From Deltaproteobacteria bacterium (lineage in GTDB: Bacteria; Desulfobacterota; GWC2-55-46; DRME01): 39,375 nucleotides of DNA. Location of the stretch: positions 1 to 39,375 of the forward strand of contig DRME01000091.1 of the NCBI GenBank assembly GCA_011375175.1, in the 5' to 3' direction. This document shows, piece after piece, positions 7,484-39,375 of this stretch (positions are counted from its first letter, which is position 1; the number at the start of each line of letters is the position of its first letter). Position numbers and translations under genes: made by a program. The notes beneath the pieces are model-generated. The model ran no database searches and had not been told where the DNA came from. It worked only from the letters and a program-made list of their open reading frames with translations.

Positions 7484-7792
7484 ATGTTTACACTCACTCT
7501 GTCACACTACCTCGTACTGAGCCTCGTGCTCTTCTCCATCGGTGTCGCCGGCGTGCTGCTGCGCCGCAACATCATAATCGTGCTCATGAGCCTCGAGCTC
7601 ATATTCAACTCGGTGAACATAAGCCTCGTCGCCTTCAGCCACTACCTCCAGGACATGTCCGGCAGGGTCTTCGTCGTATTCTCCATCACCGTGGCCGCCG
7701 CCGAGGTGGCCGTGGGCCTTGCCATACTGGTGCTCGTCTACAGGCGGCGCAACACGGTCTACGTCGAAGAGCTCGACGAGATGAGGAACTGA
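7484..7792 (+). CDS. nuoK: NADH-quinone oxidoreductase subunit K
   Basis: This is a 102-residue, three-helix membrane subunit of the proton-translocating arm. The two functionally important buried glutamates are present in MSLELIFNSVN (helix 2) and AAAEVAVGLAILV (helix 3). The start RRNIIIVLMSLELI fits the family. It lies 5 bases after nuoJ. The last codons (DEMRN) and the stop lie inside a 46-bp segment that is repeated 81 bases downstream. Confidence 0.95.
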   Translation: MFTLTLSHYLVLSLVLFSIGVAGVLLRRNIIIVLMSLELIFNSVNISLVAFSHYLQDMSGRVFVVFSITVAAAEVAVGLAILVLVYRRRNTVYVEELDEMRN

Positions 7793-7900
7793 CCGGCCCG
7801 CGAGGCGGGCCGGGCGGGCGGCCGCAACCGCTGTCTTCGCGGGGTCGCCCTCTCCGACGAGATGAGGAACTGGCCGGCCCGCGAGGCGGGCCGGGCGGGC
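7774..7900. repeat. Duplicated nuoK tail with GC hairpins
   Basis: The segment 7774-7819 recurs at 7855-7900 with one mismatch in 46 bases, which turns the nuoK stop TGA into TGG. It covers the last six codons of nuoK plus its downstream GC hairpin, CCGGCCCGC-gag-GCGGGCCGG. The spacing of 81 bases is a multiple of three. No gene is visible in the 201 bases between nuoK and nuoL. Two copies of the same strong hairpin therefore sit between the genes and could limit read-through or protect the message. That role is inference. Confidence 0.8.
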
Positions 7901-7993
7901 AGGCGGGGCGGAAAGGCCGTCCGGCCATGACGATATCCCGGCCGCCGGAGCGGGCGGCCAGGGGAAGACGAACAGGCGGAACGGACAGGGATT

Positions 7994-12946: not shown

Positions 12947-12994
12947 CCGGGGGAAACGCGGGCCTGTGGCCCTTCTACAGAAAGTTTCCCCCGG
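12947..12994. repeat. Solo type A hairpin module after nuoN
   Basis: An outer stem CCGGGGGAAAC/GTTTCCCCCGG encloses an inner stem GGGCC-tgt-GGCCC. This is the long form of the right-hand hairpin of the type A elements described elsewhere in this annotation. It stands alone between nuoN and the DUF1858-like gene. The rest of the 232-base gap (12892-13123) holds no gene. The module could act as the 3' end or stabiliser of the nuo transcript, though there is no T-run. Confidence 0.7.
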
Positions 12995-13123
12995 TTTTGA
13001 GAAAGGGCTCACGCAGCGGCGGTGCTTCAGTGGAACCCCGCTGCCTTTCGAGCCGCCTTTGCTCTTTCGGCCGTTCAAGGAAGCGGGCTTTTTCAGCCCA
13101 ATTCATACAGAGGACGAGACGGG

Positions 13124-15730: not shown

Positions 15731-15741
15731 CTCCGTCTCTC

Positions 15742-15920
15742 CTCTTTGTAAAAGGGTCACAGACCCCCGGTTCCCTCAGACTCCCTCAAAAAACTTTTGA
15801 AGCGAGTTGGTTTCCCCCTGTTTTGCCAGGCAAAACAGGGGGAAACCAACTCGTATCGAAAGTCTTTGAAGGGGGTCTGGGGGAAACTTTCTTCAGAAAG
15901 TTTCCCCCAGAGTAATTAAA
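15742..15920. repeat. Type A palindromic element, copy A1 (left end truncated)
   Basis: The element lies between the response regulator and the histidine kinase. It has a left hairpin of the long form (inner GGGTC/GACCC), then CTCCCTC-A-rich-CTTTTGAAG. The central perfect palindrome at 15803-15853 has two 25-base arms around a single A. AAAGTCTTTGAAGGGGGTC follows, then the short-form right hairpin (CTGGGGGAAACTTTCT and its complement). The outer left end is missing, and the copy stops at the Shine-Dalgarno of the kinase gene. In an mRNA running from regulator to kinase it would fold into three stacked hairpins and could lower kinase expression. Confidence 0.9.
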
Positions 15921-18196: not shown

Positions 18197-18401
18197 GGAA
18201 GCTCTGATTTATTGCACTGAGGGAACCTTTTTGTAAAAAGGTTCCCTCAGACTCCCTCCAAAAACTTTTAACGCGAGTTGGTTTCCCCCTGTTTTGCCAA
18301 GCAAAACAGGGGGAAACCAACTCGTATTGAAAGTCTTTGAAGGGGGTCTGGGGGAAACTTTCTACAGAAAGTTTCCCCCAGCGTAATTAATCAGAGTTTC
18401 C
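18197..18401. repeat. Type A palindromic element, copy A2 (full length, 205 bp)
   Basis: This is the most regular full copy. The outer ends GGAAGCTCTGATT and AATCAGAGTTTCC are inverted. The left hairpin (short form) is GAGGGAACCTTTTT/AAAAAGGTTCCCTC. The central palindrome 18274-18324 has 24-base arms around CAA. The right hairpin is CTGGGGGAAACTTTCT with its complement. The inner flanks CTCCCTCCAAAAACTTT and AAAGTCTTTGAAGGGGG are also inverted to each other. The element is flanked on both sides by ATAA, a possible 4-bp target duplication. It lies between the divergent PepSY and MBL genes. It is clearly less GC-rich than the surroundings. Confidence 0.95.
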
Positions 18402-22625: not shown

Positions 22626-23303
22626 TCAGGCCGCCTTGCGCCTTGCGGCCGCAAGCCCGATGAGGCCGCCGCCGAGAAGCAGCAGCGTCGAGGGTTCGGG
22701 CACCGACGACGACGCCGTTATGATAAGCGAATTACCCTCGAGGTGGGGGAGCGCCGCCTTCGTGTATCCGCCCATGCCATCGGGCGAGACGAAGGCGAAG
22801 TTCGTTATGCCCATGAAGTCGCCGGGCGTGATGGTGATTGTCCACGTCTGGTTGCCGAGCCCTGAGATGACGCCGCCGTCGGTGCAGCAGGGCCACCATC
22901 TGAAATCGGCGCTCGTGGAGGTGAGCTCGCCGGGGTCGTCCGAGTAGACGGTCACGCCCGAGGGCACGCCGCTTATACTCATCTTGAAGACTCCGCCGGA
23001 GAGGTCGCCGGGCGTGTCCAAGATCATGCCCAGGCTCATGTTGCCGGGCGCCCCGGTCGTGTCGGTGTAGAGCCAGAAGTAGGCGGTATCCGGGGCCGTG
23101 CCGAAGGCCGGGTGGCCGGAGCCTGACCAGGAGTAGTTGTAGTACGACCAGGCCGACTTGGGCTGTGCGATGGGTGCCACCGTCACGGAGGGGGTGGTGG
23201 TGGTGGAGTAGCTGTAGGTGATGGCCTCCGCGCGGCGGGGGAGCGCCGGCGTCAAGGACAACGCCGCCGCCACGGCGGCCGCCAATAGTATCTTTTTCTT
23301 CAT
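22626..23303 (-). CDS. PEP-CTERM sorting-domain exported protein
   Basis: This is a 225-residue secreted protein. The signal peptide is about 1-28 (KKKILLAAAVAAALSLTPALPRRAEA). The body is beta-rich and Ser/Thr/Gly-rich with no recognised catalytic motif. It ends in a PEP-CTERM tag, VPEPSTLLLLGGGLIGLAAARRKAA, made of the PEP box, a hydrophobic helix and a basic end. Such tags are processed by exosortase in Gram-negative bacteria that make exopolysaccharide; no exosortase lies in the window. I chose the ATG at 23303 with AAAGGAG 7 bases upstream; a TTG two codons earlier overlaps the spacer. A type A fragment forms its leader, and it is followed by a clear terminator. Confidence 0.9.
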   Translation of the reverse strand: MKKKILLAAAVAAALSLTPALPRRAEAITYSYSTTTTPSVTVAPIAQPKSAWSYYNYSWSGSGHPAFGTAPDTAYFWLYTDTTGAPGNMSLGMILDTPGDLSGGVFKMSISGVPSGVTVYSDDPGELTSTSADFRWWPCCTDGGVISGLGNQTWTITITPGDFMGITNFAFVSPDGMGGYTKAALPHLEGNSLIITASSSVPEPSTLLLLGGGLIGLAAARRKAA

Positions 23304-23327
23304 CTCCAATCTCCTTTACAATAAATG

Positions 23328-23355
23328 TTCCCTCAGCGCAATAAATCAGAGTTTC
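23328..23355. repeat. Type A terminal fragment in the PEP-CTERM gene leader
   Basis: This is the outer end of a type A element only: on the minus strand AGAAACTCTGATTTATTG, then CGCTGAGGGAAC. It lies 25 bases upstream of the PEP-CTERM start codon, so it is part of the leader or promoter of that gene. It looks like the relic left after deletion of the rest. Confidence 0.75.
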
Positions 23356-23704
23356 TTTATAAATACAAATATGCAAATACCGAGCCAGAGAAACCCCGCA
23401 TCATGCCTTCTGCCTGTAACATCTTGTATTGTTTGATAAAAACGAAGCTCCCGCCCCGTGGCCCTTCGCTTTCACGGGGATGCGCGGGGAAAGTGTCAAC
23501 ACTTGTTGACAGGGAGGAGGCGGCGCCGCCGGGGGCTCAAGCTGTGTTCTGTAAGGCTTCTTCAGCAAAAACAACCTATTGCGGCGTTTCGGAGTGACTG
23601 CCTCTGTTGTAGTCTTTTTTTACACCCGAGGAAGCCTCGATTCAAGGAACCTGTTTATTTGCTCTTCGAGCCGCGTCGGCTCTCTTGATCGTCCAACCCG
23701 CGCC
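23356..23704. other. Gene-free stretch with an 18-bp palindrome and a type C module
   Basis: No gene is supported here. Two signals are seen. TGTCAACA-ct-TGTTGACA (23494-23511) is a perfect 18-bp dyad, the size of an operator. The 38-base segment 23657-23694 is the reverse complement of 28082-28119 with two mismatches; it contains an inner GAGCCG/CGGCTC dyad. I call this module type C. In the other location it replaces the centre of a type A element. Confidence 0.6.
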
Positions 23705-24050
23705 GGCCGCCTCGGGGGCTGTACCGGGGGTTCGGGCCGCAAAGGCGTAAAAGATCCCGCCTGGCGCGGGCCGAACCCCACGGTGCAGCCGAAGATCCGA
23801 ATAACATACGGTGAGGCAGGGGGATACGCGTGCCTGTGGCCCCTCTTCAGAAAGTTTCCCCCGGCAGACTGCGGCGGCCGCCTCGGGGGGCTGTACCGTG
23901 GGGTTCGGGCCGCAAAGGCGTAAAAGATCCCGCCTGGCGCGGGCCGAACCCCACGGTGCAGCCGAAGATCCGAATAACATACGGTGAGGCAGGGGATACG
24001 CGTGCCTGTGGCCCCTCTTCAGAAAGTTTCCCCCGGCAGACTGCGGCGGC
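23705..24050. repeat. Tandem pair of type B nested-palindrome elements (B1, B2)
   Basis: A 171-bp unit is repeated in tandem (from 23705 and from 23876), almost identical. Each holds a type B fold (23717-23790 and 23889-23963). An outer stem GGCTGTACCG..GGTTCGG pairs with CCGAACC..CGGTGCAGCC around a core with CGC-aaag-GCG and CCCGCC-tg-GCGCGGG. GAAGATCCGAATAACATAC and a degraded type A right hairpin ending AAAGTTTCCCCC follow. The repeated unit includes about 16 bases from the 3' end of the YfhO-like gene, so duplication came after the element had joined that gene. Confidence 0.9.
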
Positions 24051-27813: not shown

Positions 27814-27960
27814 CTGGGGGAAACTTTCTGTAGAAGGGCCACAGGCCCGCGTCTCCCCGCGCCCTCTCGTATGTTATCCGGATCTTCGGCTGTACCGGGG
27901 GGTCGACCCGCGCCAGGCGGGATTTTTTACGCCTTTGCGGCCCGACCCCCCGGCACAGCC
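27814..27960. repeat. Long-form type A hairpin plus type B element (B3)
   Basis: 27814-27860 is a right-hand type A hairpin with inner GGGCC/GGCCC. Then comes the conserved TATGTTATCCGGATCTTCGG and the type B fold 27888-27960. The outer stem GGCTGTACCGGGGGGTCG pairs with CGACCCCCCGGCACAGCC (one mismatch). Inside it is CCCGC-gccag-GCGGG followed by ATTTTTT and then CGCC-ttt-GCGG. The inner part has the form of an intrinsic terminator read on the plus strand. It lies upstream of the U32 gene start. Confidence 0.9.
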
Positions 27961-27986
27961 CCCCAGAGGCAGCCGGCGCGGGCAGC

Positions 27987-28187
27987 CTGGGGGAAACTTT
28001 CTGCAGAAGGGCCATAGGCCCACGTTTCCCCCAGACCCCCTTCAAAGACTTTTAACTTGGGCCTAAGAACCTCGCTTCCTTGGACGATCACGAGAGCCAA
28101 CGCGGCTCGAAGAGCAAATTAAAAGTTTTTGGAGGGAGTCTGAGGGAACCGTGGGTCTGTGACCCTTTTACAAAAAGGTTCCCTCAG
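27987..28187. repeat. Type A element copy A6, inverted, with exchanged centre
   Basis: The order is reversed relative to A2: right hairpin first (long form, inner GGGCC/GGCCC), then CCCTTCAAAGACTTTTAA. Next come 64 bases without the usual palindrome (28056-28119), then AAAAGTTTTTGGAGGGAGTC and the left hairpin (long form, inner GGGTC/GACCC). The foreign centre contains the type C module 28082-28119, which is also found at 23657-23694. The outermost end is missing. The copy lies just upstream of the pyrE promoter. Confidence 0.9.
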
Positions 28188-29862: not shown

Positions 29863-30080
29863 GGAAGCTCTGATTTATTGCACTGAGGGAACCTTTTTGT
29901 AAAGGGTCATAGACCCACGGTTCCCTCAGATTCCCTCCAAAAACTTTTAACGCGACCTGGTTTCCCCCTGTTTTGCCTGGCAAAACAGGGGGAAACCAGG
30001 TCGCATCGAAAGTCTTTGAAGGGGGTCTGGGGGAAACTTTCTACAGAAAGTTTCCCCAAGGGTCATTAATCAGAGTTTCC
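29863..30080. repeat. Type A palindromic element, copy A3 (full length, 218 bp)
   Basis: This is a full copy with outer ends GGAAGCTCTGATT and AATCAGAGTTTCC. The left hairpin is of the long form (inner GGGTC-ata-GACCC). The centre is a perfect palindrome 29952-30004 with 26-base arms around a T. The outer part of its arms reads GCGACCTGG/CCAGGTCGC, where A1 and A2 have CGAGTTGG/CCAACTCG. Both arms are thus changed in register. The right hairpin is short-form. The remaining gap to the regulator (30081-30240) holds no gene. Confidence 0.95.
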
Positions 30081-36547: not shown

Positions 36548-36571
36548 GGCGAGCACTCTCCAAAAAGTTAG

Positions 36572-36773
36572 GGAACCCTGATTTGTTGCACTGAGGGAAC
36601 CTTTTTGTAAAAAGGTTCCCTCAGACTCCCTCCAAAAACTTTTGATGCGAGTCGGTTTCACCTGTTTTGCCTGGCAAAACAGGTGAAACCGACTCGTATC
36701 GAAAGTCTTTGAAGGGGGCCTGGGGGAAACTTTCTACAGAAAGTTTCCCCCAGAGCAATCAATCAGAGTTTCC
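36572..36773. repeat. Type A palindromic element, copy A4 (full length, 202 bp), in the mgtE leader
   Basis: This is a full copy with ends GGAACCCTGATT and AATCAGAGTTTCC. The left hairpin is short-form. The central palindrome at 36648-36696 has 24-base arms around a T. The arms read CGAGTCGGTTTCACCTG and their complement, differing from A1-A3 at matching positions on both sides. The right hairpin is short-form. It sits between the predicted promoter of mgtE and its start codon, so it should be transcribed as part of the mgtE leader. Confidence 0.95.
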
Positions 36774-39210: not shown

Positions 39211-39375
39211 GGAAACGCTGATTTATTGCACTGGGGGAAACTTTCCGTAGAAGGGCCATAGGCCCACGTTTCCCCCAGACCCCCTTCAAAGACTTTTAAT
39301 TCCCTGCGGATCATCCCGATTTTGCAGGCAAAATCGGGATGATCCGCAGGGCGTTAAAAGTTTTTGGAGGGAGTC
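39211..39375. repeat. Type A palindromic element, copy A5 (cut by the window end)
   Basis: This copy is mosaic. The terminal GGAAACGCTGATTTATTGCACTG is joined to the long-form right hairpin (inner GGGCC/GGCCC), then CCCTTCAAAGACTTTTAA. The central palindrome is 39302-39351 with two perfect 24-base arms (CCCTGCGGATCATCCCG.. and its complement) around AG. CGTTAAAAGTTTTTGGAGGGAGTC follows at the edge. Apart from the TTTTGC/GCAAAA next to the loop, the arms share nothing with A1-A4. Confidence 0.93.

Follow-up and report, generated by a model that had tools for sequence, protein, structure and literature searches.

A repeat that usually holds a long palindrome at its centre, framed by the arms CTTTTAA and TTAAAAG, raises the question of what has happened in a copy that holds something else in that place. 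The copy concerned, A6, lies in the window analysed here, a stretch of 39,375 nucleotides that is the whole of contig C91 in a 2.49-Mb draft genome of 138 contigs. A first-pass annotation had proposed that A6 keeps both type A arms but carries 64 other bases between them, part of which recurs near position 23657, and that the centre of the element thus behaves as a cassette slot. The description itself holds: positions 28056-28119 read CTTGGGCCTAAGAACCTCGCTTCCTTGGACGATCACGAGAGCCAACGCGGCTCGAAGAGCAAAT and are flanked directly by CTTTTAA (28049-28055) and TTAAAAG, and 28082-28119 matches the reverse complement of 23657-23694 over 38 bases with two mismatches, where dinucleotide shuffles of the window give an expectation of 0. 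The analysis below leads to a different account of its origin. The genome of this groundwater bacterium is full of a small, palindrome-rich repeat of modular, transposon-like build, and A6 is a copy from an old branch of it; the centre slot is real in a descriptive sense, and the cassette mechanism is not supported by the evidence offered for it.

Annotation of the modules (L, R, H1, H2, B and the centres) by BLAST revealed that A6 is larger than had been noted. It is a composite on the minus strand, which reads H2L-B-H2L-R-C-L-H1L in window direction and whose module order recurs in two other loci (L004, L016). Its parts, delimited by module annotation and, for the centre, by the sequence and a genome-wide alignment, are:

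27814 to 28187, minus strand: whole composite with A6, H1L - L - C - R - H2L - 38 nt - B - 41 nt - H2L
28140 to 28187, minus strand: outer hairpin H1, long variant (CTGAGGGAACC..GGTTCCCTCAG with an inner hairpin)
28121 to 28140, minus strand: left arm L (GACTCCCTCCAAAAACTTTT)
28056 to 28119, minus strand: centre of type C, non-palindromic, 64 bases
28034 to 28053, minus strand: right arm R (AAAAGTCTTTGAAGGGGGTC)
27987 to 28034, minus strand: outer hairpin H2, long variant
27900 to 27948, minus strand: type B hairpin module
27814 to 27858, minus strand: second H2L hairpin, after B

Genome-wide alignment of the copies demonstrates that the repeated unit around 28056-28119 is the entire centre of ~62 bases, referred to as C (consensus of the aligned copies: TTTGCTCTTCGAGCCGCGTTGGTTCTCATGATCGCCGAGGAAACGAGGTTCTTTAGCCCAA), and that the 38 bases named earlier are just the portion of C surviving at 23657. 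A search of the whole genome with 28050-28126 gave 36 matches, ~20 of them strong over most of the query. There are about 30 copies of C in all, and those that are intact lie between L and R. In more than 100 other copies the same slot holds one of two palindromes, P1 or P2. The search for alternative centres that had been suggested for CTTTTAA-N-TTAAAAG indeed recovers both: the pattern has 111 matches per strand (0 for a reversed-pattern control), and nearly all of the matches listed contain P1 (CCCTGCGGATCATCCCGATTTTGC..) or P2 (CGAGTTGGTTTCCCCCTGTTTTGCC..). Tolerant matching in the fetched loci parsed 37 P1, 35 P2 and 30 C copies, numbers that are near-exhaustive for C and samples for P1 and P2; element counts and flank conservation alike are partly conditioned on the search patterns. 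Intact copies of all three kinds share the plan T - H1 - L - centre - R - H2 - T, and every combination of short and long H1 with short and long H2 is present with each of P1, P2 and C. As for the surroundings of C, its better-preserved copies keep L and/or R; none free of L/R remnants was found among the well-preserved genome copies, and a few degenerate ones have lost both arms. The position is interchangeable, as had been claimed, since P1, P2 and C lie between the same L and R, but the evidence offered does not bear out a moving cassette.

The second site, which had served as evidence for the cassette, comprises:

23658 to 23695, plus strand: truncated C, with an internal deletion joining GTCCAA to the spacer before B (module annotation and comparison of the junction with A6)
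23729 to 24034, plus strand: B - H2L - B - H2L tandem after the truncated C (module annotation)

Here C runs to GTCCAA and then jumps to CCCGCGCCGGC...; what follows GTCCAA reads CCCGCGCCGGCCGCCTCGGGGGCTGTACCGGGGG. Because A6 has this same spacer, CCCGCGCCGGCTGCCTCTGGGGGGCTGTGCCGGGGGG, in front of its B module, the site is a C-R-H2-B composite from which an internal deletion has removed R and H2. The neighbouring type B modules do not alter this reading: in many copies centred on P1, P2 or C, B follows ~40 nt past R and H2L ~41 nt further on (L045, L083, L104, L006, L021), and since B also trails R in copies with P1 or P2 centres (L045, L083, L104), its adjoining C says nothing specific about C. 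The module thus does lie beside a type B array, but this is a deletion relic and not a second context independent of type A. The first-pass annotation had itself named such a relic as the outcome that would speak against it; for the 23657 site this is what was found, while the slot is still supported by other evidence. As a caution, a module common to two contexts may be a deletion remnant and need not prove a cassette. The type B module itself (GGCCGCAAAGGCGTAA..TCCCGCCTGGCGCGG; window 23902-24034) has ~100 copies in this genome, the only one of 48 searched to contain it, and its outer stem seems to covary between copies.

How, then, did A6 arise? We consider it quite probable that it is a copy of a miniature inverted-repeat transposable element (MITE) that inserts as a whole unit, that its centre changes by template switching and recombination, that C marks an older subfamily and that the 23657 site is a deletion product. 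Such a unit would follow the plan T - H1 - L - centre - R - H2 - T, with B modules sometimes added after R. Its mobility is recorded at its ends. Type A carries terminal inverted repeats T (GGAARCTCTGATTWATT) at both ends, with 99 exact matches on each strand, and pairs of T lying 60-330 bp apart define 34 non-redundant complete elements, the sizes of which cluster at ~74 bp (T-hairpin-T) and at 203-234 bp. Exact 4-bp flanking duplications are present in 12 of the 34, against 1.6 in shuffled pairings (0 of 5000 shuffles reach 12), and duplications of 2, 3, 5 or 6 bp give no signal in the same set; the unit inserts whole, duplicating 4 bp of its target. The commonest targets are TTAG, CTAA, TTAA and TTTA/ATAA-like tetranucleotides, which agree with the YTAR target of IS5 (PMC10359306). 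Nested insertions point in the same direction: in L022 (TTAA/TTAA) and L019 (TTGA/TTAA), T-elements have entered the TTAA that separates C from R in older C elements, and removal of the insert with one 4-bp copy restores a readable C element, from which the empty site can be deduced. The complete copies that have a C centre and both ends (L003, L005) show no target duplication, so the movement of C-centred units is not directly demonstrated. Type A as a whole behaves as a non-autonomous transposon with an IS5-like signature.

An IS5-type DDE transposase acting in trans could account for both the ends and the duplication. Like IS5-group MITEs, type A has ends starting with GGAA, a 4-bp target duplication of the YTAR/TTAA kind and no coding capacity; unlike them, it showed no partner in this genome: no insertion sequence with ends matching GGAARCTCTGATTWATT and no IS5-type transposase were found. 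Searches of the genome for the PF01609 transposase (in a draft assembly that breaks at these repeats), for the PF05598 domain and for PF01797 (Y1 transposase, RAYT type) yielded none, and the PF05598 loci of relatives have no IS ends matching those of the element. By its terminal features type A is an IS5-type MITE; its membership of that group fails on the missing partner IS.

The family reaches beyond this genome. Of 48 genomes belonging to the order, 18 carry the R arm with the start of H2, as does 1 of the ~380 genomes outside it in a sample of the phylum. The family is thus largely restricted to this order, which we take to be the GTDB order around GWC2-55-46. Named carriers are groundwater metagenome-assembled genomes of Deltaproteobacteria (among them GWA2_55_10, H5_GWC, UBA5799 and several NC_groundwater genomes). 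Their elements have the same plan as type A, with a central hairpin of the form TTCC-N8-CCCCC-loop-GGGGG-N8-GGAA in which N8 varies from copy to copy: 19 elements contain 17 distinct 8-nt arms, and the pairwise difference of N8 averages 56%, compared with 4.5% for L+R, a low value partly selected for because the L/R arms were the search bait. The pairing of these N8 arms is unaffected by this choice; it is 97.4% Watson-Crick, as opposed to 46.6% (sd 5.2, max 67.1) when the 3' arms are re-dealt. C is absent from the 38 relatives searched and B from 47, and P likewise occurs in none of the relatives searched. Weak matches to C in two relatives (G026, G032) lie in coding sequence and were dismissed as chance, and that in G001 (L063, ~250-370) proved to be an H1 + L half element; this genome belongs to another family, and the half element lies immediately downstream of a tRNA-like gene. 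No C was found by an exact-pattern scan of a collection of genome contigs, no arm by such a scan of viral contigs, and A6 had no BLAST match in phages or plasmids. In three elements of relatives (L117, L161, L164) the loop of the central hairpin holds unrelated sequence of 50-150 nt, in one case with further repeats; these long loops are possible secondary insertions. In three relatives (L113, L114, L117) a short gene follows ~60-100 nt past the element, its start looking alike by eye (MPEVSRELADK, MLGVSEGLVEK, MSFREILRGLVE), a placement that may reflect either shared descent of an orthologous site or an association.

If relatives have palindromic centres only, C might be unrelated DNA that was inserted into one palindromic-centred element and amplified later; in favour of this, it is absent from the 38 relatives, all of which have hairpins at the centre. 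The divergence of the copies tells another story. The mean pairwise difference of the core is 0.155 among well-preserved C copies and 0.232 among all of them, against 0.079 and 0.064 for P1 and P2; in intact copies, L+R mismatches in 34 nt amount to 0.67 with C and 0.34 with P1/P2; and degenerate C copies exist (L024-L029 and the one at 13042) in which H1 and H2 are absent and the arms decayed. C therefore did not arise recently from the P1/P2 copies now present, and an insertion of unrelated DNA appears unlikely to us. The simplest reading is that, in this lineage, C represents an older subfamily of the element, carrying its non-palindromic centre in the same place, and that P1 and P2 are younger, amplified subfamilies; C could in turn have descended from an older palindromic element. 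A swap of younger arms onto C-centred copies was considered and dropped: since core and arms are both about twofold more diverged than in P copies, age alone explains the divergence of the C arms. A short reading frame in C (ATG...TGA) was also rejected, as A6 and other copies lose the start or gain stops.

The palindromes could alternatively be kept by their product, the element serving as a functional RNA or transcription signal (a bidirectional terminator or a regulatory RNA) whose centre varies under selection for an RNA stem. The near-complete pairing of central stems in relatives despite the 56% difference between copies would fit such selection, as would the stable folds of P1 and P2 (single-strand DNA fold, z -11 and -12.7). 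The non-palindromic C, on the other hand, folds no better than shuffles (z ~-1), and copies in the window occupy divergent, tandem and possibly intra-operon gaps, not mainly positions after genes. No Rfam family scored above the gathering threshold; matches below it were to plant and animal miRNA and plastid 3'-UTR models that fit palindromes, and were discarded. Substitutions in the P1/P2 stems are two-sided in 39 cases and one-sided in 20, and the one-sided changes include 6 G.T and 7 A.C pairs, that is, no excess of G.T such as RNA selection would produce. The loops occur in both orientations (TT 14, AA 11). According to one account (PMC8604942), template switching both homogenises the arms of inverted repeats and inverts their spacers. 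Two-sided changes and loop flips together speak for a process at the DNA level and against selection for an RNA stem, which we hold to be rather improbable, while leaving room for a structural role.

The centre is the fastest-changing part of the element, mostly a long palindrome with arms kept equal and a loop that flips, as the P1/P2 copies display; template switching at the hairpin would be the simplest route to both features. The near-identical inverted L and R would further allow centres and outer hairpins, which do reassort among the copies, to do so by ordinary recombination. Alternatively, the centre could be actively diversified, with arms fixed order-wide and a stem rewritten yet kept self-complementary by hairpin copying or a recombinase, the stem acting as a copy-specific tag or recognition element; to this we give little credence. 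A cassette slot proper, in which a dedicated recombinase swaps or inverts independently existing C, P1 and P2 cassettes between CTTTTAA and TTAAAAG, is very improbable, for although three centre types lie between identical arms, one P1 centre is wholly inverted relative to L/R (L050, 1 among 35 P1 copies) and P2 and C stand side by side, joined at the L side, in two chimeras (L008, L012), ordinary recombination between near-identical inverted arms suffices for L050, L008 and L012, the better-preserved C copies never occur without element remnants, C, B and P are limited to this genome among relatives, the 23657 site is a relic and no recombinase candidate was found. We thus read the variable centre as the outcome of template switching and inter-copy recombination, not of a cassette recombinase.

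Among known systems, the module plan of type A can be likened to that of the BOX elements of Streptococcus (boxA - boxB/boxD variable - boxC; PMC3049150), which are likewise short interspersed non-autonomous repeats with terminal inverted repeats and target duplications, and have conserved end modules around variable internal ones, lone modules, clustering and nested insertions. Type A differs in that its centre is a single palindrome or C, where BOX varies the count of tandem boxB, and in that the centre is hypervariable but self-complementary in relatives; it would work like BOX without being a BOX member. With bacterial interspersed mosaic elements and REP/REPIN sequences, as far as these are described in PMC2817692 and PMC3116915, it shares high-copy intergenic palindromes in mosaic arrays. 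Its terminal inverted repeats and 4-bp duplications, its unit of ~205 bp with three hairpins and a genome in which no Y1 transposase was detected set it apart; type A is not a REPIN. A BOX-like mobile family thus inhabits 18 of the 48 searched genomes of one deltaproteobacterial order, with hundreds of copies here. The more interesting finding, beyond A6, is a fixed-arm element with a hypervariable, self-complementary centre across an order: near-constant arms beside an always-paired centre offer a natural test of whether DNA template switching or RNA selection maintains palindromes.

Further copies and remnants in the window are:

18197 to 18401, plus strand: complete type A, P2 centre, terminal inverted repeats, ATAA 4-bp target duplication on both sides
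15741 to 15910, plus strand: type A, P2 centre, with a minus-strand gene on either side, of which the downstream one codes for a histidine kinase
29863 to 30080, plus strand: type A, P2 centre, a terminal repeat at each end, flanks TTAG/TTGG and hence without an exact target duplication
36571 to 36773, plus strand: type A, P2 centre, both terminal repeats
39211 to 39375, minus strand: type A, P1 centre, cut by the contig end
13042 to 13101, plus strand: degenerate old C, the third in the window, which follows an H2L hairpin (12949-12992) at a distance of 49 nt

Many of the draft contigs start or end inside P1/P2 palindromes (for example C2:4-71, C3:2-70, C36:6-90 and 39291-39375 of the window); the element is probably a main cause of assembly breaks, and its true copy number is probably higher. 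A half type A remnant (H1 and terminal repeat, 23315-23358) lies just upstream of the start of a gene for a PEP-CTERM protein (22626-23309). Finally, a 51-bp direct duplication, 94% identical, is found at 7774-7824 and 7855-7905, at and after the end of a nuoK-like gene.
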